A DNA stretch of 64,000 nucleotides, taken from the NCBI GenBank assembly GCA_036172665.1, contig CM069871.1:6138001-6202000 (forward strand), in the 5' to 3' direction. The position numbers and the translations under genes are program-made. Positions 7,315 through 62,926 of this stretch are shown here, piece by piece. The notes below the pieces were generated by a model. The model saw only the letters and a list, made by a program, of their open reading frames with translations. It was not told the DNA's origin and ran no database searches. Source of the stretch: Prosopocoilus inquinatus (taxonomy: Eukaryota > Arthropoda > Insecta > Coleoptera > Lucanidae). Each line of letters begins with the position of its first letter. Position 1 is the first letter of the stretch.

Positions 7315-7398
7315 GATTGCAGTGGATTCCTCGAGCATCCCCCGGACAGCTGTTTTGGGCCAATTTGGGGCCTCCTCAGCAAGGAAGCAGGTTTTTTC
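7315..7398 (-). ncRNA. Decayed hammerhead-ribozyme-like element
   Basis: On the minus strand it keeps CUGAGGA (7379-7373), a GGCC/GGCC stem II, loop AGCU and a GUC cleavage triplet (7347-7345). The second box reads AAAAC rather than GAAAC, so the invariant G12 is changed and activity is not expected. Stem I bases differ from the other copies but still pair (CGGGGGA with the strand 5' of the first box, including G-U pairs). The flank 'gattgcag' and the 'ctcgagca' block match the copies at 12.3 and 51 kb. Confidence 0.5.
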
Positions 7399-12215: not shown

Positions 12216-12334
12216 CTGATTAGGGATCTTCAGTTTATTTTTTAACAGGTTTAACTAGCCGAATTACTCTCAGAAGGTTTAAACTACGTTTAACGTTAAT
12301 TTTATGAAAAAAAATTGGTGCAAATCGTTTTTGA

Positions 12335-12427
12335 TTGCAGAGAAAACTTCGAGCAGCCTCTGTACAGCTGTTTCAGCCCTGCTTGGGGCTTCTTCAGCAG
12401 AGACGTAGCTCGACATTTCCACTGCAA
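12335..12427 (-). ncRNA. Predicted type I hammerhead ribozyme
   Basis: This is a predicted self-cleaving RNA, read on the minus strand. CUGAAGA lies at 12397-12391; stem II is AGCCC/GGGCU closed by CAAGCA (12390-12375); GAAAC is at 12374-12370. A two-pair stem III with loop AGCU leads to GUA at 12365-12363, giving predicted scission between 12363 and 12362. Stem I pairs CAGAGGC (12362-12356) with GUCUCUG (12404-12398), seven pairs with one G-U. After an internal loop it resumes with TCGAGC and TTGCAG helices closing at 12335/12427. All invariant core bases are present, and open stem I makes it type I. Activity and expression are not shown. Confidence 0.75.
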
Positions 12428-12475
12428 ACAAAAACAACTTGTTCAATTTATTCACAAATGCGATGTAAAAGTGGT

Positions 12476-12647
12476 GAATAGATAAAACAGTGACATCTTA
12501 CGATCGCTTTTTGACCTGATATTGCAGTAGGATAGACAGATTGAAGCGGATTGGATTTTATTTTGTAGCAAATCCGCTTCAATTTGTCCATCCTACTGCA
12601 ATATCAGGTCAAAAAGCGATCGTAAGATGTCACTGTTTCATCTATTC
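12476..12647. repeat. Snap-back palindrome, 77-bp arms, 18-bp loop
   Basis: The arms at 12476-12552 and 12571-12647 are inverted copies with three mismatches in 77 positions. Each arm is the end module of the hammerhead-bearing element ('gacatcttacgatcgctttt', 'attgcagtaggat', 'ttgaagcgg') seen at 49.7, 50.8 and 57.4 kb. The mismatches show that the inversion is not a simple cloning or sequencing artefact. Confidence 0.92.
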
Positions 12648-13829: not shown

Positions 13830-16800
13830 AATCTTGTGGCTAATTAAAAACTGGTTAAAAACGATTAAGACTGGCGAAGCTAATTGGCTGGAATGTTAGG
13901 TAATTGAATATATCCACTGCTTTTAGTTGAACTGTAGACTGAACTGTTGTTATCATTAGCCTATTTGAATTTCCTTGTTCAATCATTTATACTTAGCTGA
14001 ACTATAGAGTGAATAGATAATTAATTGCTCAGCCAATTTGGATTTCAGTTTTAACTAGTAGTAAACAACCAGTTTGGTTCCTCTTGCATTTATCTAAGCT
14101 ACAAGCGAAACGAAGGTTGCTTCAGCCAATTTAGTTACATCTGTTTGGTCATTTACACTGACCTGAACTGTAGACTGGAGGCAATTAATTCCTCAGCTAA
14201 TTCAGATTCAATTTTTAACTAGTAGAGCTTAGCTAAACAAAATTATTAAACAAATCGTTACTTCAACCTATTTGAATTCCTCTGTTCAATCGTTTACACT
14301 TAGCTGAACTGTAGATTGAACAGACAATTCATTCCTCAGCGAGTTTAGATTCCAGTTTTAACTGATAGTGTTTAGCTAAACAAACCAATTTGATTTCTCT
14401 TGCATTTATCTGAACTACAAGTAAAACGAAGGTTGCTTCAGCCAATTTAGTGTCCTCTGTTTGGTCATTTACACTTACCTGAACTGTAGATTAGAGACAA
14501 TTAATTCCTCAGCTAATTCAGATTCAATTATTAACTAGTAGCGGTTAGCCAAACAAAGTTATTAAACAAATCGTGACTTCAGCCTACTTGAATTCCTTTC
14601 TTCAATCGTTTACACTTAGCTGGACTGTAGATTGAACAGATAATTCATTCCTCAGTGAATTTAGATTCCAGTTTTAACTGATGGTGTTTAGCTAAACAAA
14701 CCAATTTGGCTTCTCTTGCATTTATCTGAGCTACAAGCGAAACGAAGGTTGCTTCAGCCAATTTAGTTTTCTCTGTTTGATCATTTACACTTACCTGAAC
14801 TGTAGATTAGAGACAATTAATTGCTCAGCTAATTCAGATTCAATTTTTAACTAGTAGAGCTTAGCTAAACAAAGTTATTAAACAAATCGTTACTTCAACC
14901 TATTTGAATTCCTCTGTTCAATCGTTTACACTTAGCTGAACTGTAGACTGAACAGACAATTCATTCCTCAGCGAGTTTAGATTCCAGTTTTAACTGATAG
15001 TGTTTACTAAACAAACCAATTTGGTTTCTCTTGCATTTGCCTGAACTACAAGCGAAACGAAGGTTGCTTCAGCCAATTTAGTGTCCTCTGTTTGGTCATT
15101 TACACTTACCTGAACTGTAGATTGGAGACAATTAATTCCTCAGCTAATTCAGATTCAATTTTTAACTAGTAGCGTTTAGCTAAACAAAGTTATTAAACAA
15201 ATCGTTACTTCAGCCTACTTGAATTCCTTTCTTCAATCGTTTACACTTAGCTGGACTGTAGATTGAACAGATAATTCATTCCTCAGTGAATTTAGATTCC
15301 AGTTTTAACTGATGGTGTTTAGCTAAACAAACCAATTTGGCTTCTCTTGCATTTATCTGAGCTACAAGCGAAACGAAGGTTGCTTCAGCCAATTTAGTTT
15401 TCTCTGTTTGGTCATTTACACTTACCTGAACTGTAGATTAGAGACAATTAATTGCTCAGCTAAGTCAGATTCAATTTTTAACTAGTAGCGCTTAGCTAAA
15501 CAAAGTTATTAAACAAATCGTTACTTCAACCTATTTGAATTCCTCTGTTCAATCGTTTACACTTAGCTGAACTGTAGACTGAACAGACAATTCATTCCTC
15601 AGCGAGTTTAGATTCCAGTTTTAACTGATAGTGTTTAGCTAAACAAACCAATTTGGTTTCTCTTGCATTTGCCTGAACTACAAGCGAAACGAAGGTTGCT
15701 TCAGCCAATTTAGTGTCCTCTGTTTGGTCATTTACACTTACCTGAACTGTAGATTGGAGACAATTAATTCCTCAGCTAATTCAGATTCAATTTTTAACTA
15801 GTAGCGTTTAGCTAAACAAAGTTATTAAACAAATCGTTACTTCAGCCTACTTGAATTCCTTTCTTCAATCGTTTACACTTAGCTGGACTGTAGATTGAAC
15901 AGATAATTCATTCCTCAGTGAATTTAGATTCCAGTTTTAACTGATGGTGTTTAGCTAAACAAACCAATTTGGCTTCTCTTGCATTTATCTGAGCTACAAG
16001 CGAAACGAAGGTTGCTTCAGCCAATTTAGTTTTCTCTGTTTGGTCATTTACACTTACCTGAACTGTAGATTAGAGACAATTAATTGCTCAGCTAATTTAG
16101 ATTCAATTTTTAACTAGTAGCGCTTAGCTAAACAAAGTTATTAAACAAATCGTTACTTCAACCTATTTGAATTCCTCTATTCAATCGTTTACACTTAGCT
16201 GAACTGTAGATTGAACAGACAATTCAATCCTCAGCGAGTTTAGATTCCAGTTTTAACTGATAGTGTGTAGCTAAACAAACCAATTTGGTTTCTCTTGCAT
16301 TTGCCTGAACTACAAGTGAAACGAAGGTTGCATCTGCCAATTTAGTGTCCTCTGTTTGGTCATTTACACTTACCTGAACTGTAGATTGGAGACAATTAAT
16401 TCCTCAGCTAATTCAGATTCAATTATTAACTAGTAGCGGTTAGCCTAACAAAGTTATTAAACAAATCGTTACTTCAGCCTACTTGAATTCCTTTCTTCAA
16501 TCGTTTACACTTAGCTGGACTGTAGATTGAACAGATAATTCATTCCTCAGTGAATTTAGATTCCAGTTTTAACTGATGGTGTTTAGCTAAACAAACCAAT
16601 TTGGCTTCTCTTGCATTTATCTGAGCTACAAGCGAAACGAAGGTTGCTTCAGCCAATTTAGTTTTCTCTGTTTGGTCATTTACACTTACCTGAACTGTAG
16701 ATTAGAGACAATTAATTGCTCAGCTAATTCAGATTCAATTTTTAACTAGTAGCGGTTAGCTAAACAAAGTTATTAAACAAATCGTAATTTACTTCAGTCT

Positions 16801-17480
16801 ACTTCAATTCTTTTGTTCAATCGGTTACACTTAGCTGAACTGTAGATCCAACAGACAATTCATTCCTCACCCAGTTTAGATTCCAGTTTTAACTGATAGT
16901 GTTCAGCTAAACAAACCGATTTTGTTTCTCTTGCACTTATCTAAGCTACAAGCTAAACGAAGGTTGCTTCAGGCAATTAATTCGTCAGTTAATTTAGATT
17001 CAATTTCTAGCTAGTAGTATTTAGCTAAACAAAGCTGTTAAACAAATTGTTACTTCAGCCTATTTAAATTTCTTTACTCAATGATTTGTATTTGGAGCAG
17101 ACAGTTCATTCTTCAGCAAATTCAGATTTCACTTTTAACTGATAGTGTTTAGCTAAACGAAGTTAACTTCAACCAATTTGGTTTATCTTGCATTCATCTG
17201 AACTACAAGCGAAACGAAGCCATAAGCCAATTTAGTTTCCTCTGTTTAGTCACTTACACTTATCTGAACTATAGATTAAACTGAAGACAATCCATTCCTT
17301 AGCCAATTTAGATTCCAGTTTTAACTGATAGTGTTCGGTTAAACAAAGTTAGCTTCAACTAATTTGGATTCTTTTGCATTTACTTGAACTAGAAGCGAAA
17401 TAAAGATTGCTTCAACCAATTTGGTTTCCTCTGTTCTTCTGTTTTGAGCTCAGCTGAACTATAAGCTGAATAGAGTTGAA
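13830..17480. repeat. Satellite array with nested 158/316/632-bp periodicity
   Basis: The marker 'cttagctg(a/g)actgtag' recurs at 14299, 14615, 14931, 15246, 15562, 15878, 16194, 16510 and 16830, intervals of 315-320 bp. Alternate units share variants ('agctgaactg...cagcgagttt' versus 'agctggactg...cagtgaattt'), giving a 632-bp higher-order repeat. Each 316-bp unit holds a second, diverged half marked 'cttacctgaactgtag', so the ancestral monomer is about 158 bp (offsets about 175 and 141). Central units are nearly identical; both edges (13.9 and 17.0-17.5 kb) are decayed. No frame stays open. Confidence 0.95.
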
Positions 17481-27179: not shown

Positions 27180-28640
27180 TCTTAGAAGAATTGCTGAATG
27201 TCGGGCGAGACGCTTAAAAATTGGGCGGATGACCTTGAAAATTGAATTCTTCACCGAAATTTCTTTTAATCGACGCACGACTAAAGAACACTACACTATT
27301 GCTGGACTAGAATAATTTTTTTCTGTTTAGACTTTTGATGGGCCTTCTCGATAGTTTTTTTTTTTTGATAGATAGGATTACAATTAGTTTTTATTTAAAC
27401 TTCCGAAGGACTTTTAATTTTTCTTTCTTGTAGTGAACGAAATGCAATTAAAAATTACAGCAAACAGAAGGAGTTTTAGATCACTGAATCTCAAAATGTC
27501 GGCAGGAAACAATCCTTGAAAAGTTCTTTTCAAAATTATACAGCTAACAAAATAACGATCAAATTCACTTTTCTTCTATTCAAAAAAAGTGAGAATCCCT
27601 GGCTGGATGACCTTGAAATTTAATTTTCTATTTTTTTAATTAGTTCCCATTAATTGTAAAAAATAGAAAATTAGTTTTGAAAATAAATTTTCAATTCTTT
27701 TTTTAATTAATTCCCATTAATTGAAAAAAATAGAAAATTTTCAAGGTCATCCGGCCAGGGGTTCCCACTTTTTTCACAAAAGAAGCTATCATGATACTAT
27801 TGCTCTGGATTTTAGTTCTTTTGTTAAGTTTCTGAAGGGTTTCTTCAATTTTTTTTGTAATCGATGGAACAGTCAGAAAATTATTATCTGAGTAACAGGA
27901 GATTGTTCTAGGCCAGTTATTCCCAAAATGACGGCAGGGAATACTTCTTGAAGCGTTATTTTCCAAATTTTTCCATTGCTAACAAAGCATTAATCAAAAT
28001 CTCATTTTTCGCAATTTTCAAAAAACCAAATACCCGGTCTGGATAACCTAGAAAATTGAACATCGCAAGTTTTATAGAAATTTATTTAATTTTTATTTTG
28101 ACGCAAGTCTAAAAGGAAGCTAAAGTCACCAAACTTCTTCCGCATTTTTTTTTAGTTAGACTTTTGAAAGGATTTTTTTTGTAGGGAACGAAATAGCAAT
28201 TAAAATTACTTGCGCAAACAAAAGGACTCGGAGATCAGTGAATCTCAAAATGTCGACTGGAAATAGTTTTTTCCAAAATTATTAAATAAGTAACAAAATA
28301 TCAATCAATATCACTTTTCTACCATTAAAAAAAAATAAAATAATAAAAAAAAGAAATTTGGGAACCTCCGGTCTAGATGACCTTGAAAATTAAATTTTCT
28401 ATCTGTATTGCAATTTTTAATTGATGAGAGTCTAAAGGAAGGTAAAATCATCAAACTATTGTTCTGAATTCGATTTTTTTGTTTAGACCTTTGAAAGGTT
28501 TCATTTTCTTTTGGTAGTGGACGAAACAACAATCAAAATTATTATACGTGAACAGGGACGGGTTCTAGACCAGTGATTTTCAAGATGTCGGAAGGAAATA
28601 GTCCTTGAAGGCTTCTTTCCAACATCAGATAAACAGCGTA
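27180..28640. repeat. Diverged tandem array, ~330-440-bp unit, about four copies
   Basis: The marker 'gatgaccttgaaaatt' (or a variant) occurs at 27227, 27605, 28042 and 28375. Each unit also carries 'gtttagacttttgaaagg', 'gtag.gaacgaaa', 'aatctcaaaatgtcgg' and 'taacaaaat..aatcaa' blocks in the same order. Copies are heavily diverged, so the array is old. The longest interval (437 bp) contains an internal inverted segment. Confidence 0.85.
27589..27768. repeat. Inverted repeat inside the 27-28 kb array
   Basis: The array segment 27589-27631 ('ccctggctggatgacc', 'ttgaaatttaattttcta') reappears inverted at 27731-27768. Between the arms lie two direct copies of 'attaattcccattaattg' (27640-27657 and 27705-27722). 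This looks like a fold-back rearrangement of one unit. Confidence 0.8.
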
Positions 28641-47385: not shown

Positions 47386-49676
47386 AAGGAGAAAATGAAT
47401 TAAAATTAACAATTAGGTCTTAATTGAGGGATTTTATTTATTTATCACTTGCTTGTCTCTTGAAATTATGGTCATGTTATAGGTTTGAAGTGTGAAATGT
47501 TTTTTTTTTTACTCTTTCATTGTGGGTTGTGCATTGCTTGTTTGAAGTCGTCAACAAATTTTGATTTTTGGTATCTTTCTATTATTTGGATAATTTGTTT
47601 TTGGTTTTTGATGACATGTATATAAGGAATTGAAAAAGCAAGTACATATATAAACATTCAGACAATATTCTTCAATGCAGAACGTCTAAAAATAATCACA
47701 GAAATATGTGACAAAACCAGTTCAGCACTGAAATACTCGAAAGCAACCAGTTTCGAGAAATTCATAATGTGATCAAAAGGAAAAGAAACAAAAACGTGAA
47801 AAAAGCATCACGAATAAATAAAGATTAGAGACCGCTACAAGTTCGCGTCTTGCTCCTTCGACAAAAAGCGTACAGAATGAAATATCACGGTACAGTGCAA
47901 TCGAAATTTATTAGTCGGTTTCTTTCGTTAAATATTTTAAACGCGCCTGCGAGGAAAAAGCGCGCGCAAAAAGGTTAATTTAATAAATCATTTAAATAAA
48001 TTGGCGAATCAAAACAATGGCCCCGCTGGAAAAAGCGAACGATGTGTAATCTGGTTCTGCGTTTTCTTGAAATCTTGAAATAAGTGGCGCAGGTGCGATC
48101 TGTGTGGTCAAACAATAGGAAATTCTTTTTTGATTCTTGACGGCCGGACAATGATGTTACTCAAGTGAATTTTGGCATCCGTCGCGCTCATTTAGAGAAA
48201 AAAAAAGTTACCGTTAGCTGTATAAATACAGAACACAATACTCTTATTTTTAGGACGATCTTTTAAAAATGTACGTTTTTGCAACTAACAACAGCAAATT
48301 GCTTCCGTTTGCAGAAAACTATAAGAAACATTTCTGCATTTTCTATTAAGGCAGCATCGTAAAAAAGAAGCGCACACAAACAGGACGAACTAATTCGTTT
48401 CACAATCAGTAATTAGTTTAGCTTAAGTATTACGCAAGCAAAATAAAAGGTATAGTGTGAGAAATCCACTTTATTATGTCGAATTCAAATTTTATGCTAA
48501 TTAATTTCCATGGTAATCTGAGAACTGCCTCTTGCTCATCTTTTAAAAAGTTAAATTTATTACACAAATCCATTATTTTTCTAACCGTTAGTATCCTGTC
48601 CCAGGTATCACATAACTGAATCATATCAGTGAATAATTACAACCTAATTTACAATTAATTGAATATATACTGTCGTAAAAGGACTAGACCGAAGTAATTT
48701 AGGATGCACGTCATGTACATACATACATATATATACACTTGACGCGCAAAATTGACACACCTTTAAATGTTTCACTATAAATAATAATTATAAACGTGGA
48801 ATGCTGATATTCTACACGTTTTATTCGCAGCTTCTCATCATAACGCAAGTGTCTGGTTAAATCGAGATATTTAGCACGAGTAATAAAAACCGCAGCTGAA
48901 ACAAACAAGGTTTTGCTTGTAATCATGTGAAACACATAGTATCTTTAATGTATATTACGGTGGTTAACACATTTTGTAATACCATCTGGAAAGGAAAACC
49001 GCTGCCTTTTTTTTAATTTTCGCAAGCGAAATTGAATGACCGTCGCAAATAAAACAAAGTAAGCTCGACTTAAAAATCTGCAAATCACACACGTCACATC
49101 ATCCTTATTGTAACAAGCACAGGATAAATTAGGTCTTTATTACTCGTGGAGATCGACCAGCTCATCGTGACTTGCACCCCCCTGTAAACGTATTTACTTA
49201 TTCAATACTCATGAGGATGAGAGTGGAGTGGCTACATTAATATGTAGATTATTATTAAGAACGTGAAAAATGAGGGTCTTTTATTTTTTGCATACATGTG
49301 CCCCCCCGTCTGGGTTACAATTGATTAATTTAGATTAGGAGGTTTACAATTATTACGTTGATGAAACTTAATCTTATATACGTGTTATATTCCGCTTTAA
49401 TGAAATTAAAAAAAAAAAAAAATAAGCAAGAGATTCACTTTAGGCTGTGGTTACATTGGGTACGTATTCTGACAACTAAAAGGGTACGATTTAAAAAATA
49501 ATAATAATTCTATAGTCCAAGCACTTCGTTCGTAACGGACGCTTCCAAATAGTTAATAGTTAAGTCTATACAGGGTTATTAAAATTAGAGGAAACGGTTT
49601 AAAATTATTGTCTGGCGGCAATTAGGTATTACGAAACAAGTCAAAATATTTTTAACTTTAAACTGAAGTCATTTTT
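47386..49676. other. No gene identified
   Basis: The sequence is AT-rich. 'gcgcgcgcaaaaagg' near 47962 is a GC island. A (CATA)n-like tract lies near 48718-48735. A mariner-like 'tacagggtta' lies at 49569. The frames here are short and unrecognised. Confidence 0.35.
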
Positions 49677-49842
49677 GAACAGATAAAATAGCGACATCTT
49701 ACGATCGCTTTTTGACCTAAAATTGCAGTAGGATAGACAAATTGAAGCGGGATTTGCTCCTAATAAGTCCCCCATGCAAGGCGGCCATGCTTGCATAATG
49801 AAAGATTTAGAAAAATTTTGTGCAAATCGTTCTTGATTGCAG
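49677..49842 (+). mobile_element. Hammerhead-family element, end module only
   Basis: This matches 50794-50968 nearly base for base: 'gacatcttacgatcgctttt', 'gcagtaggatagacaaattg', 'gtcccccatgcaaggcggcc', then 'tgcaaatcgttcttgattgc'. It stops exactly at 'gattgcag', where the hammerhead begins in the other copies, and continues into unrelated DNA. An 8-bp gap relative to the 50.8-kb copy removes part of 'ctgtcgaa'. Confidence 0.9.
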
Positions 49843-49974: not shown

Positions 49975-50785
49975 GTAAACCGTTTCTTTCAAAAAATTGA
50001 TTGTCACTTGTTTCTTTAAAAAAATGATTGTTTCTTTAAAAAATCGATCGCCAATTGTTTCTATTACCAATCAATTTAATAGTTTCTCTACGTAGAAATT
50101 GGTTACTTTTTTTTCTTTAAAAAATTGAGCGTCAATCCAATAATTTAAAAAAATTGATTGTCAATTGTTTTCTTAAAAAATTGATTGTCAATTGTTTTCT
50201 TAAAAAAATTGATTGTCAATTGTTTTCTTAAAAAACTTGATTGTCAATTGTTTTCTTAAAAAAATTGATTGTCAATTGTTTTATTAAAAAAAAGATTGCA
50301 AATTGCTTTCTTTAAAAACTTGATCATCAAATGTTTCTTTAAAATCAATTTCAATCCAATCCAATAGTTTAGAAAAAATGACTGCCAATTGCTTTCTTAA
50401 AAAAAATTGATCAACAATTGTTTCCTTTACTATTCAGTTCAAGTTTTTCTTAAAAAAACAGAAAATGATTGTCAATTTCTTCTCTAAAAAAAATCGTCAA
50501 TTTTATCTTATCTATAAAATTCGAACGCCAATTGTTTGTCTCGCTAATTCAATTGTTTCTTTTTTTAAAATATTGTCAACTGTTTTTCTTTAATATTATC
50601 AATTGTTTCTTTAAATAAATTGTTCGTCAATTGTTATTAAAAAAAAATCATCGTTTCTTTTATTATCCAATTCAATAGCTTCTCAAAAAAAATCGATCGT
50701 AATTTTTTTCTTAAAAAAAAATCATCTTTAATTGTTTCTTTTCATTGTCACTTTGTTCTGTTCAAAAATTGATCGTCGATTGTTT
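49975..50785. repeat. Tandem array IV, ~31-bp unit
   Basis: The unit 'ttgattgtcaattg' plus 'ttttcttaaaaaa' is repeated; the centre (50150-50290) is nearly perfect and both sides decay. The array is bracketed by two direct copies of the hammerhead-family end module (49677-49842 and 50794 onward). Confidence 0.93.
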
Positions 50786-50793
50786 ATTTTATT

Positions 50794-51131
50794 GAACAGA
50801 TAAAATAGCGACATCTTACGATCGCTTTTTGACCTGACATTGCAGTAGGATAGACAAATTGAAGCGGGATTTGCTCCTAATAAGTCCCCCATGCAAGGCG
50901 GCCATGCTTGCTGTCGAAGCATAATGAAAGATTTAGAAAAACTTTGTGCAAATCGTTCTTGATTGCAGTGAAAACCTCGAGCAGCATCTGTACAGCTGTT
51001 TCAGCCCTGCTTGGGGCTTCTTCAGCAGAGACGTAGCTCGACATTCCCACTGCAGTGGGAATGTCGAGGGCTGAAACAGCTGTACAGATGCTGCTCGAGG
51101 TTTTCACTGCAATCAAGAACGATTTGCACAA
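50794..51131. mobile_element. Hammerhead-family element, fullest copy, ending as a palindrome
   Basis: The end module (50794-50962) leads into the hammerhead (50963-51054). The DNA then turns back: 51053-51131 is the inverted copy of 50943-51052. The centre 'cattcccactgcagtgggaa' has no loop. The right arm lacks about 30 bp (corresponding to 51007-51036), which removes the CUGAAGA box and most of stem II. Outside the deletion the arms are essentially identical. Confidence 0.9.
50963..51054 (-). ncRNA. Predicted type I hammerhead ribozyme
   Basis: A predicted self-cleaving RNA on the minus strand with every core element. CUGAAGA is at 51025-51019; stem II AGCCC/GGGCU with loop CAAGCA at 51018-51003; GAAAC at 51002-50998; loop AGCU at 50997-50994; GUA at 50993-50991. 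Predicted scission lies between 50991 and 50990. Stem I starts with CAGA (50990-50987) paired to UCUG (51029-51026), then an internal loop, then a six-pair GCUCGA/UCGAGC helix and a seven-pair CACUGCA/UGCAGUG helix. An internal loop in stem I is expected for contact with loop II in fast-cleaving type I hammerheads. A two-pair stem III is like that of Penelope-type minimal hammerheads. Confidence 0.78.
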
Positions 51132-52048
51132 AATATTTCGAAGTCATTTTTGTTTAAAAAGTAGAAATGTAAGCATTTTCAAAATTCTCGGACAGTTTTC
51201 TCAGAAAATGTAGAGCGGTAGTCTTATTTTAAATAAAAAAAGGGCGGAGGGGTCGACTCATCTAAGGCACTTTCATTGTTTTTAAACTCAGCGTGTATCT
51301 ACGTAGAATATAATTGGAGGGAAAGTCTAAAGCGAATCTATTCTAAACTAGCTCGCAGACATTTATTTTTTTTTTATATATTTCATCCTAATTCATTTCG
51401 TCATATAGAGTAAGCAAGAAGTTAGGAAGAATGAGTCACTCAAAATTGTGTATATACTCGTGGCGTTCTCTTTTTGCTGTCCATTAGTGTACATACACGA
51501 TCGTGTTTGTCCGTTTTGACGTATCTACAGTACCTGGCAAAGTCTGCTGCCCATATTTGTTGGTCGGACACATCGACAAAGCTACACGGCTTATTGTATT
51601 TATGCTAACGTTTTGCCTTGTTTGCGTCAGTAAATCTCTTATTAATTACCAGGAGGTATTTGACTATCGGACAGCGATCACACTATCGCACATCCGTGAA
51701 CCATACCTGCGTTATTAAATTTATGACCGATGAAAATCGATGCAGGCGAAGGCAATTGTAACATAATTTATTCACTTCCCCACGTTCGTCCTGTTATCAT
51801 CGGGAATTAATGAGTTTATTATTTATACGGGGTGTTTAAAATATTCGAATTTCCTAGCGACACACAAAAAAAAAATAAAAAAGAAAATTTTATTTTATTT
51901 AATAACCCGGCCTTCTTTTTAAACTCGCGGACGCCAGCTTATAAAAACAACGCCTCACCATATCTTAATAAGTTCGAAGTTAAGATGTTACGTATCAAAT
52001 GAAATATGAACTGAGTTTGCTGAGTTTGCCGCGCACCGCAGGATACAA
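51132..52048. other. No gene identified
   Basis: A shared 13-bp word 'gaagtcatttttg' lies just outside this element (51139) and just before the copy at 49677 (49664). The frame at 51503-51718 is unrecognised. A mariner-like 'tacggggtg' lies at 51826. Confidence 0.4.
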
Positions 52049-57387: not shown

Positions 57388-57629
57388 TAGTTTAAACAGC
57401 GACATCACACGATCACTTTTTGACCTAACATTGCATTAGGATTGACAAAGTGAAGCCAGTTTGCTACATAATAAGTCATCCCATGCAAGGCGGCCATGCT
57501 TGCTGTCAAAGCATAATGAAAGTTATAAAAAAAATTGTTGATTCTGTTGATGAAGTCTCAAATAAGGCTGAAATAACTATGTAGAGGCTGCTCGAGGGAT
57601 TCACTGTAGTCAAAAACGATTTGCAACAA
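57388..57629 (+). mobile_element. Hammerhead-family element, diverged copy with inverted hammerhead
   Basis: The end module ('gcgacatcacacgatcac', 'gcattaggattgacaaagtg', 'catgcaaggcggccatgctt') is in the same orientation as the 50-kb copies, but the hammerhead part runs the other way (plus strand). The 5' strand of stem I is missing. This arrangement is what remains if a palindromic copy loses one hammerhead. Confidence 0.8.
57541..57612 (+). ncRNA. Diverged hammerhead motif
   Basis: On the plus strand it reads UUGAUGA (57547-57553), stem II AGUCU/AGGCU with loop CAAAUA, GAAAU, then 'aactatgtagaggctgctcg'. The stem II changes (C to U, G to A) keep pairs as G-U or A-U. The first core base is U rather than C and the cleavage region is altered, so it is probably inactive. 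The CAAAUA loop is also the loop II known from the schistosome hammerhead. Confidence 0.55.
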
Positions 57630-58316
57630 TTTTTTTTATTATTATTATAAAATATAAATTAAAATGGGATAGGATTTTGCTGTTGCGCGTGCAAAAGGAG
57701 CAGAATTAAGAGAATTTCAGTAAGCGGGAAAACATGTTTCTGTGAAAAACGCACAAAGCAACCTAGAGGAACGTTTTGTAATCTCAAAATGTCTTAGATT
57801 CTAAATAAGTCATGTTTAATGGCTAAGTCTATTTATAATTAGAGAATATGCTGGATTTTTTGCTAAATTAATGCACTCTATCGTCTTTTTAACATACAGG
57901 GTGATTCATAATACATGTCTGACCCATTAGGGGCGCATTTACTAAGGTCATGCAAATTCCAAATTGTAAAAAAAAGATTATCGGAGACGTTTCGAAAATC
58001 AACGTCTTTTGTACCCCAAGTGGAAACCGTTTGAGTAGCACCGATGACTATTGGAATGCGATGCATAATGTGTCTTTAAAAGCGAGTTGACTAACTGTGT
58101 CACTGTGTCAACAAAAAACAAATCTAACTTACAGTTTTTATAAAAGATTTTCGATGTGACCTTTTTAAGCGCTTATTCACATGATTGATGAATAGGCCGC
58201 CAAACAACATCGCGTCTTAGGGCTAGCTTATTCGATCAAATTTAACTTAACATTTAATTTATTAAAACTGCAATAATTACTCCTGGATACACGTTTTAAC
58301 TCGCGTACTTGGTAAC
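57630..58316. other. No gene; one mariner-like end
   Basis: 'tacagggtgattcataatac' lies at 57895, a typical mariner-like terminus; no matching right end was found. The rest is unremarkable. Confidence 0.4.
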
Positions 58317-58492
58317 GCAAGATTTTTCTTCTTTGCGCGAGCAACTCTGCGTGCCGAGTACAGTTCTATGTGAATGTCAGCCTAATGAATCACGTACGCT
58401 GAGCAGTGATCAGCGTACGTGATTCATTAGGCTGACTTGGGGGTCGTCTACTTGGCACGCAGAGTTGCTCGTGCAAAGAAGAAAAATCTTGC
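58317..58492. repeat. Snap-back palindrome, ~85-bp arms, 7-bp loop
   Basis: Left arm 58317-58402 and right arm 58410-58492 are inverted copies; 'cctaatgaatcacgtacgct' and 'gcaactctgcgtgcc' are perfectly matched. A middle block of about 12-15 bp (left 'tctatgtgaatg', right 'gggggtcgtc') does not match. The loop is 'gcagtga'. Confidence 0.93.
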
Positions 58493-59059
58493 ATTCTTTT
58501 GATTTCTTTTGCTCCAGCAAAAACGAAATTCCCTCAAGTGGAGTGTTGAGTTTCCATGAACACGAATTATTCGAGGAAATTTTTATACGTATAAGATTAG
58601 GAATAGAAGGATATGGAAGCATTCTGTTTGAGGTCGTATTTCCTCCTGGAATTTTTTGATATTCACGTTGTTTGGTCTCTTCTTTGCTGTTGTGTTACTA
58701 CCTACTTGTTTTCTCGACTTCTGTTTTAAAATACTTTCCTAAATTTTAATTTGGCGTTTTATTAAAATGTCGAAGCCTTAACACCTTGGTACAAATATCT
58801 TATTTTCAGTTTTTCTCTTTATCTTTAGATCCTCTTTCTAGAATTTCTATTCTCTCTGTTCAATGTGTTCAGCTTCATTTGCATCTTTCAAACCTACCTT
58901 CCCCATTCAGCAACACTTTCTTTCAATTTTCAATTTCCAACTCCCTTTCCGCATTAAATCGTTGTCGTTTTTTTTTGTTGTTGTCCAACGATGTTTTGAA
59001 TTTTTAAGTAACCGTAAAAAGATCTAAATGATCAGAGTTTGCTAAAATTGTAAAAAGAC
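58493..59059. other. T-rich DNA without a gene
   Basis: Pyrimidine-rich on +, with a Leu/Ser/Phe-rich open frame at 58786-59007 that reflects composition. No repeat period was found. Confidence 0.4.
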
Positions 59060-61059: not shown

Positions 61060-62870
61060 CGTATTTGTGGAAGGCCAAAGAAAAGAACGTACATTTTCTT
61101 AACGTTTCGTAATTTTCTTTTCTACGGTTACATTCACAGTGCTTTTAATATCGAAAGCTCAAGGTCATTCAAGGTAGATCGATCAATCCAAGTCCTAAAA
61201 ACATTAATTAATCAGTTTTTTTAATTGTTCGTAATGCCGTCACTGGAATTCAGTGGCAAGAAATTCAAGGCGTTTCAAGGTCAACCGCCTGAAGATATCG
61301 TGATATGGAGCCGAGCGGCGACAAGAAATTTAAAAGCATTCAAGGTAAAAAAAAAATTTTAACTCGCAATACATGCTCGAAATGAGTTAACAAGTTAAGC
61401 TAACCTTAATGTAAAAGTAAGAAAGAAACAGCTTATGGTTAGATGTTTAGATTTATTTAATTAGTTGCTCGAAATGATGAACTGTTATATTCGAAGTAAC
61501 GCCATCGACGTTCCATGACAAGAAAGTCAAGGACATCCAAGGCCGAATGATGAAAGCACCTCAAAAACTAATGAACTAGAATTTTTATTATTAAAACCTA
61601 ACCCCGTATTACTTGCTATAAAAAAAAGATAAAATCTGGAATTAATAACGATCGCGAACCATAAACGCACGTGGAAAACTTTTTTTGACCGTAAATGTGC
61701 AGTCATTCAATTTCTTAATGTTTTGTAATTTTTTTGTACGCAGTGCTTTTAATACTGAAAGCTCAAGGTCATTCAAGGTAGATCGATCAATCCAAGTGCT
61801 ATAAACATTAATTAATCAGTTTTTTTTAAATTGTTCGTAATGCCGTCACTGGAATTCAGTGGCAAGAAATTCAAGGCGTTTCAAGGTCAACCGACTGAAG
61901 ATATCGTGATATGGAGCCGAGCGACGACAAGAAATTTAAAAGCATTCAAGGTCAAAAAAAAATTTTAACTCTCGCAATACATGCTCGAAATGAGTTAACA
62001 AGTTAAGCTAACGTTAATGTAAAAGTAAGAAAGAAACAGCTTATGGTTAGATGTTTAGATTTATTTAATTAGTTACTCGAAATGATGAACTGTTATATTC
62101 GAAGTAACACCATCGACGTTCCTTGACAAGAAAGTCAAGGACATCCAAGGCCGAATGATGAAAGCACCTCAAAAACTAATGAACTAGAATTTTTGTTATT
62201 AGAACCTAACCCCGTATTACTTGCTATAAAAAAAAAGATAAAATCTGGAATTAACGATCGCGAACCATAAACGCACGTGGAAAACTTTTTTTGACCGTAA
62301 ATGTGCAGTCATTCAATTTCTTAATGTTTTGTAATTTTTTTGTACGCAGTGCTTTTAATACTGAAAGCTCAAGGTCATTCAAGGTAGATCGATCGATCTA
62401 AGTAGCGCAAACATTAATTAATCAGTTTTTTTTTATTGTTCGTAATGACGTCACTGGAGTTCAGCGGCAAGAAATTCAAGGCGTTTCAAGGTCAACCGAC
62501 TGAAGACATCGTGACATGCAGCCGAGCGACGACAAGAAATTTAAAAGCATTTAAGGTCCAAAAAAAATTTTAACTTTCGCAATACATGCTCGAAATGAGT
62601 TGAACAAGTTAAGCTAACGTTAATATAAAAATAAGAAAGAAGTTAGATGTTTAGATTTATTTAATCAGATAGTCGAAATGATGAGCTGTTATATTCGAAG
62701 TAACATCATCGACGTTCCGTGACAAGAAAGTCAGGGATATCCATGGTCAAATGATGAAAGCATCTCAAAAACTAATGAACAAGAATTTTTGTTATTAGAT
62801 GCTCGTATGAGTTCGCTAAGAGATAAAATCTGGAAGTAACGACCGCGAACCATAAACGCACATGGAAAAT
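61060..62870. repeat. Tandem array V, ~605-bp unit, three copies
   Basis: 'gcttttaata' starts units at 61141, 61745 and 62351 (periods 604 and 606). Each unit carries 'aaggtcattcaaggtagatc', 'cactggaattcagtggc', 'ggcgtttcaaggtcaaccg', 'aagtcaaggacatccaagg' and 'cgcgaaccataaacgcac'. Units 1 and 2 are about 97% alike by eye; unit 3 is more diverged and lacks about 15 bp. A short 'tcaagg' word recurs within each unit, suggesting the unit grew from a smaller repeat. Confidence 0.95.
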
Positions 62871-62926
62871 ATTTTTGTTTTCCACGTGCGTTTATGGTTC
62901 GCGATCGTTAACTCCACATTTTATCT
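62821..62926. repeat. Inverted partial unit closing array V, 49-bp arms, 8-bp loop
   Basis: 62821-62869 (end of unit 3) recurs inverted at 62878-62926 around 'tatttttg', with about six mismatches. The right arm continues as an inverted copy of the unit to about 62960 ('tttttatagcaagta'). In several bases it resembles units 1 and 2 more than unit 3 ('gcgatcgttaa'), so it was copied from an inner unit or predates unit 3 divergence. Confidence 0.9.

Follow-up and report, generated by a model that had tools for sequence, protein, structure and literature searches.

Head-to-head insertions of a hammerhead retrozyme in the beetle Prosopocoilus inquinatus resemble those of a resident Penelope-like element

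Retrozymes of animals produce circular RNA, and Penelope-like elements (PLEs) have been proposed to move them, according to the account in PMC7229834 and a transposable element guide that repeats it (PMC8969392). The grounds given for this proposal are the co-existence of PLEs with retrozymes, the tandem occurrence of both, and the presence of type I hammerhead ribozymes in both (PMC7229834, PMC7761336). For the element PAc, both target strands are reported to be cut and extended, with reverse transcription starting at two adjacent internal RNA sites without any difference between the strands, and the hammerhead is described as dispensable in vitro (PMC11167929). Bdelloid PLEs are described as having inverted ends arranged head to head, one of which may bear a tail, and target site duplications (TSDs) of 8 to 10 bp in several copies and none in others (PMC3846280). 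Plant LTR retrozymes form a separate group, distinguished by LTRs, PBS, PPT, a 4-bp TSD, and a type III hammerhead (PMC7229834, PMC7761336); the beetle element described here resembles them, as they are presented in PMC4918200, in being non-autonomous, in carrying a hammerhead, and in its presumed circular RNA.

The DNA analyzed here (the window) comprises 64,000 nucleotides of P. inquinatus contig CM069871.1 (assembly GCA_036172665.1, positions 6,138,001 to 6,202,000). On its minus strand, positions 51025-50991 read CTGAAGA-AGCCC-CAAGCA-GGGCT-GAAAC-AGCT-GTA, a complete type I hammerhead core; pattern reading of the window thus confirmed all the parts named in the initial annotation, in the same order, and the predicted cut at the 50991/50990 bond coincides with the 5' end at 50990 given there. 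The motif combines the invariant CUGANGA, GAAA, and UH elements with three helices and an open stem I. The flanks do close stem I around an internal loop, as had been claimed, although the helices count slightly differently here: 4 bp (TCTG/CAGA), the internal loop, 5 bp (TCGAG/CTCGA), and 6 bp (GCAGTG/CACTGC). A second copy of the same core is found at 12397-12363, also on the minus strand. The argument that such a combination is unlikely by chance does not hold for the bare core pattern, which has four matches in the window (two of them overlapping each other) vs. 2.97 expected from shuffling. Given that this pattern is common, a chance origin is excluded by homology instead, using a covariance model trained outside the window.

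The Rfam type I model Hammerhead_1 (RF00163) produced no match in the window at the gathering score and none at E ≤ 10 in the 601 bases around the motif. The initial annotation had proposed a search with this model and had named the absence of a significant covariance-model score as a reason to drop the ribozyme reading; such absence is what the general model returned, whereas a family-specific model, R1, gave 78.8 bits to the same motif. R1 was built from 14 related loci outside the window, 6 of them above the Rfam cut-off, with no window copy in the training set. It delineates a complete hammerhead, including stem I, at 50968-51044 on the minus strand (78.8 bits, E = 4.4e-23) and another at 12340-12416 on the same strand (78.4 bits); weaker matches are at 57535-57604 on the plus strand (54.1 bits), at 7322-7395 on the minus strand (an old hammerhead copy, 53.0 bits), and at 51035-51107 on the plus strand (24.1 bits). 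In the 650-Mb assembly, RF00163 has 27 matches at E ≤ 1, 7 of them above the cut-off. Among the 20 that were fetched, 17 align in blastn to the 312-bp monomer of the element over its hammerhead, and 19 contain the CUGANGA ... NAAA core pattern. The window motif agrees with RF00163 in core and topology, and some relatives of its monomer exceed the cut-off, but the motif itself goes unreported.

Covariation was assessed in an alignment of 21 rows, 3 from the retrozyme family and 18 found with RF00163, so that the pairing counts lean to the RF00163 structure. In the hammerhead helices, 82.1% of the cells are paired, vs. 22.9 to 43.5% in slid versions, and 10 of the 22 helix pairs show changes on both sides (for example, U-A 15 and C-G 5 in stem I, A-U 13 and G-C 5 in stem II). 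Among 500 column shuffles, none reached the observed covariation score or the number of double-changed cells, and 6 reached the percentage paired; two of the five measures were within reach, the double-changed pairs (29 shuffles) and the pair types (166 shuffles). The helices thus covary across homologues, with stem III being nearly invariant and hence uninformative. The R1 matches and the relatives elsewhere in the genome bear out the placement of the motif in a dispersed repeat with further window copies, and its identification as a hammerhead by descent, inside a mobile repeat of this kind, is well supported by these comparisons.

The host element is a non-autonomous non-LTR retrozyme with a monomer of 312 bp, within the 150 to 450 bp of this class, with a type I hammerhead and with copies ranging, like the dimers to multimers of the class, up to arrays of ∼13 units. 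The monomer shows no coding constraint, and the loci decompose into monomer arms only, which is consistent with the absence of LTRs. Loci were decomposed into stretches of the monomer, in which m1 is the first nucleotide past the predicted cut; this was done for 30 loci, for 3 window copies, and for later loci. The first set (L001 to L030) represents 30 of the 40 scored among 214 candidates, L031 to L050 are 20 of the 27 RF00163 matches, and the second set consists of the 14 distinct loci among L051 to L080, drawn from the 40 scored among the 457 first-look candidates for the family. Duplicates (L018 of L017, L056 of L054), L052 (the same as L023), and the L051 to L080 stretches overlapping counted ones were dropped before counting. 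Three of the 45 distinct loci are cut at a stretch edge (L028, L060, and L079) and were left out, leaving 42 uncut insertions; the B end missing from the L060 array is visible in L064, and that of L079 is visible in the monomer match list. The same element with the same structure occurs at different places in L054 (C13) and L056 (C11), L035 and L036, and L017 and L018, which are perhaps unmerged haplotypes or segmental copies.

One A end (m54-72) and one B end (m192-212) are found in 37 of the 42 uncut insertions (26 of 30 in the first set and 11 of 12 in the second); L003, L008, L012, L016, and L053 do not conform. By the end bins used, none of the 42 is A-A or B-B, although L012 looked A-A in an earlier decomposition. 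Site A lies 54 to 65 nt downstream of the cut (72 nt in one copy), and site B lies 192 to 212 nt downstream. The two arms are joined head to head and both point outward, and in each the hammerhead strand has its 5' end where the arms meet. The monomer position at which one arm reaches the junction bears no relation to that of the other arm (mean circular offset of 70.9 nt vs. 78 nt expected, n = 37). The median length is 370 nt for A-arms and 336 nt for B-arms, and the longest arm in the monomer match list, ∼4.1 kb, corresponds to 13 laps. Direct repeats of at least 10 bp, in line with the >4 bp of non-LTR retrozyme TSDs, flank 29 of the 37 insertions vs. 6 of 648 mismatched pairs; they measure 12 to 13 bp in 18 of the 37.

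This anatomy of two head-to-head arms, fixed ends A and B, and unrelated junctions appears to be new for retrozymes. It was not found in the full-text literature searched by titles and the opening parts of abstracts, including passages of the report on the Schistosoma W-element (PMC8490949), with subscription papers, preprints, and supplements lying outside the search. The element shares with the animal non-LTR retrozymes of Cervera and de la Pena (2020; PMC7229834) a type I hammerhead with a weak stem III, an ∼300-bp monomer found as dimers to multimers, low GC content, the lack of an encoded protein, TSDs of >4 bp where present, and a highly self-paired predicted circle. That paper describes tandem repeats; inverted arms, fixed end points, and a putative donor-enzyme signature are features noted here. 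A foldback DNA transposon or MITE was considered and rejected: the outer ends A and B differ, an arm can hold several tandem units, and the TSD length varies. Also discarded as a heritable terminal variant was the G-to-T change that many first-set loci carry at m5 in a single unit; this change occurs in either arm, is absent from the second set, and matches a T in the search query, pointing to ascertainment.

The window contains three such insertions. The one bearing the motif, at 50793-51142, is a two-armed inverted element, which the initial annotation had missed. According to the decomposition, its B-arm (50793-51049, minus strand, 257 nt) runs from m199 back through the cleavage site to m254 and holds the complete hammerhead; its A-arm (51050-51142, plus strand, 93 nt) consists of 17 nt of m248-264 followed by m295-m58, without the CUGAAGA part, so that it repeats the motif only partly and in inverted orientation (the 24.1-bit match). 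No clear duplication was found around this copy. The second insertion comprises an A-arm with a complete hammerhead (12309-12549, minus strand) and a B-arm (12562-12647, plus strand). An older, third one comprises a B-arm (57394-57539, minus strand) and an A-arm with a decayed hammerhead, the 54.1-bit match (57540-57638, plus strand). A truncated fragment at 49676-49842 on the minus strand covers m199 to m23, and its second arm was not found. With one complete hammerhead and both arms shorter than the 312-nt monomer, the copy at 50793-51142 can release no unit-length circle. The earlier interpretation is thereby upheld as far as a hammerhead by descent in a mobile repeat is concerned and falls for circularization from this locus, which could cut once at most and could fold back on itself; tandem copies elsewhere could release circles. 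The window also contains two other tandem arrays, one at 13958-17435 with a period near 313 bp and up to ∼91% identity, which, despite the similar length, is not matched by positions 50700-51300 in blastn, and one at 61092-62876 with a period near 610 bp and units 84 to 91% identical. Foldback repeats of ∼185 to 200 bp at 27583-27774 and 58314-58495 are likewise not matched by 50700-51300 in blastn.

Given its sequence parts, the window motif can be predicted to self-cleave. For the 92-nt stretch containing it, the predicted optimal fold (-49.6 kcal/mol) is not the hammerhead, which has -39.6 kcal/mol when enforced; an optimum below the hammerhead, by 1.1 to 15.1 kcal/mol, was also seen in all 14 relatives tested. 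Natural hammerheads mostly close stem II with a G-C pair, and an A-U pair is found here. The 14 second-set loci, whose selection used the whole monomer, show less variation at hammerhead sites than elsewhere in the monomer (1 of 448 vs. 56 of 3,920 locus-sites, p = 0.027); for all loci together, the respective counts are 20 of 1,440 and 244 of 11,634. The lower variation in the first-set loci was set aside as biased by the query used to find them. The second-set counts lend weak support to purifying selection on the hammerhead. The circular monomer is predicted to fold with -114 kcal/mol (z = -8.8 vs. base shuffles), and in this fold site A immediately follows the hammerhead rod on its 3' side, as site B follows a second stem. 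The outer insertion ends fall in unpaired linkers of this predicted circle (0.79 vs. 0.35), and 5 of the 312 rotations, the real one included, are as good.

The GIY-YIG domain (PF01541) has 2,232 candidate matches in the genome, and the 150 that were scored have frames of up to 788 aa. One frame of 591 aa carries both RVT_1 and GIY-YIG domains. Among the 120 relatives listed of 754, the first with species names come from the beetle Tribolium, the springtail Allacma, and the beetles Molorchus and Aromia. Neighboring GIY-YIG pairs within 10 kb of each other are oriented -/+, that is, head to head, in 47 of 48 cases. Twenty of these 47 pairs were picked by position before their ends were seen, and the L124/L125 pair was dropped on account of its alignment, leaving 19 readable. 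In 18 of them, one short end (+45 to +52) and one tail end (+84 to +94) follow the putative hammerhead cut; the remaining pair has a short end and an end at +81, just outside the tail bin. TSDs of at least 10 bp flank all 19 (19 of 20 counting the unreadable pair) vs. 0 of 166 mismatched pairs. The insertion anatomy of this PLE therefore parallels that of the retrozyme in the head-to-head ends, the two kinds of ends, and the TSD.

At the upstream start codon of the PLE, a putative minimal hammerhead, GCG-CUGAAGA-UGGUAAC-UUC-GUUACC-GAAA-UACGUA-UU/CGC, was recognized by eye (L093:298-340, plus strand); a short upstream frame comes after it and ends ahead of the main frame. Its putative cut, 26 nt after that start codon, is at the distance reported for PAc in PMC11167929. 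No PLE hammerhead was reported by R1 (11 loci, E ≤ 10) or by the Rfam model (8 loci, E ≤ 1), both scans being of loci other than L093. The two PLE starts lie just 3' of two predicted stem-loops, with unpairedness at the ends modestly raised (0.57 vs. 0.43). Comparison of the monomer with 12 PLE loci in blastn gave no match at E below 0.8, apart from a retrozyme copy inserted in L082; that insertion, at L082:2006-2467, is ∼0.4 kb from the GIY-YIG match.

Target preferences were compared in the 27 of the 37 retrozymes that have a duplication of at least 10 bp under a narrower window and in the 19 PLEs, with the A or short end drawn on the left. The trinucleotide GTT directly follows the TSD on the B side in 9 of the 27 retrozymes (0.58 expected) and on the tail side in 6 of the 19 PLEs (0.41 expected); at the 14 other offsets tested, it never appears more than twice. 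AAC before the TSD is enriched in the retrozymes (5 of 27) and occurs in 0 of the 19 PLEs.

As portrayed in PMC3846280 and PMC11167929, PLEs have in common with this retrozyme the head-to-head inverted ends, the optional tail on one end, TSDs in many copies, AT-rich targets, the cutting and extension of both strands, two internal start sites, and, in PAc, a minimal type I hammerhead where the frame begins. The retrozyme differs in having neither a reverse transcriptase nor a GIY-YIG endonuclease, as its 312-nt monomer includes no constrained frame, and in a spacing of ∼140 nt between A and B, compared with ∼40 nt between the short and tail starts of the PLE. It works like a PLE insertion, yet it is no PLE. 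In PAc in vitro, no start-site difference between the strands is described (PMC11167929), whereas both the retrozyme and the resident PLE have one end of each kind per insertion.

The whole is best explained, and with high probability, by a type I hammerhead retrozyme being inserted by the resident PLE enzyme, with priming at A and B. Tandem retrozyme copies would be transcribed and their RNA cut by the hammerhead, and the cut units probably would be ligated into 312-nt circles. The PLE enzyme, a reverse transcriptase joined with a GIY-YIG nuclease, would nick both strands of an AT-rich target ∼12 to 13 bp apart. Within the retrozyme RNA, reverse transcription would have two dedicated starting points, A and B, both in linkers predicted to be unpaired and located immediately 3' to a stem; A would serve for extending one target strand and B for the other, and the copying would often exceed a single lap. 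Joining of the two cDNA ends at unrelated positions would then place head-to-head arms between the TSDs. A narrower version, in which the arrays are fossils of rolling-circle reverse transcription from one ribozyme-made 312-nt circle by the PLE enzyme, with two start sites, one per nicked strand, up to ∼13 laps, and joining of the cDNAs, has roughly an even chance of being correct.

The two arms of a locus tend to come from like templates. At common variant sites, they agree in 0.903 of 389 cells from 36 loci, vs. 0.606 in shuffled pairings (maximum 0.785), although such agreement would also follow from two molecules of one subfamily. Rare variants are common to both arms in 16 of 148 cases, whereas units of other loci have the same letter in 100 of 35,236 (15 of 117 vs. 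76 of 14,632 in the first set). In these comparisons, an old separate insertion in L028 was left out, and L060 was replaced by L064 for the 0.903 concordance and the 16 of 148 counts. The 132 of 148 rare variants that are confined to one arm can be expected from mutation after insertion or from copying errors, and they leave room for two templates at some loci. The cleavage site is traversed by 36 of the 37 A-arms, and arm junctions are located there in only 2 of 74 cases, with no pile-up, so the usual template is a circle or an uncut multimer rather than a self-cut linear monomer.

The main competitor of the circle keeps the same element and the same PLE enzyme and takes as template a linear multimer, transcribed from a tandem array and left uncut; it has an appreciable, if lesser, likelihood. 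PAc inserts hammerhead-dead RNA equally well in vitro, and unprocessed RNA is called its dominant substrate (PMC11167929); passage of the arms through the cleavage site fits uncut RNA as well, and arrays of several monomers exist as possible sources. Against such a template speak the reduced variation of the hammerhead sites (the 1 of 448 vs. 56 of 3,920) and the abundant circles described for animal retrozymes elsewhere (PMC7229834). Tandem units within one arm agree at 472 of 503 common variant sites, as they might if copied from a single circle, though a homogeneous source array would give the same.

Mobilization by a LINE through twin priming, with the likeness to the PLE being coincidental, is improbable. 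LINE insertions can also have TSDs of 10 to 15 bp and 5' inversions, but the second ends of such inversions are not known to lie at one fixed internal site as A and B do here, and the resident PLE, in a comparison confined to it among possible donors, has in common with the retrozyme the head-to-head arms, the one-of-each-end rule, the TSD length, and the preference for GTT. A mechanism suggested in PMC3846280 for the palindromes of PLEs, self-priming with an antisense template, is similarly improbable as the origin of the head-to-head arms. Near-palindromic junctions (offset of at most 15 nt) do occur in 6 of the 37 insertions, but folding back predicts matching junction coordinates, while the offsets look uniform, and a TSD-flanked insertion whose two outer ends are fixed yet different requires a start for each; the junction offsets accordingly do not support self-primed palindromes. 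Twin priming on one RNA fits better than self-priming, given that the two strands have distinct, fixed sites, that the junctions are unrelated, and that the templates are alike. Finally, the reading of the motif as part of a protein-coding exon with a chance likeness to a hammerhead has a negligible probability and was rejected on the codon-position counts: a frame reading MSSYVSAEEAPSRAETAVQMLLEVF... remains open over the motif for 55 codons in the window copy, counted from an ATG, but substitutions in the first-set loci are spread evenly over the codon positions (86, 90, and 91) with a synonymous share of 0.27 vs. 0.24 expected, in 8 of 18 aligned relatives stem II begins with a one-base gap, and relatives exceed the Rfam hammerhead cut-off.

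The retrozyme insertions of this beetle thus have a signature of PLE type, in agreement with a young PLE of the same genome as to the arrangement of the arms, the one-of-each-end rule, the TSD length, and the target preference, and this signature bears on which enzyme moves animal retrozymes. It also offers a genomic view of how PLEs work, in which each target strand has a start site of its own, two in all. A single purified protein and a single 312-nt RNA would suffice for a direct test of the donor enzyme and of the circular-template model.
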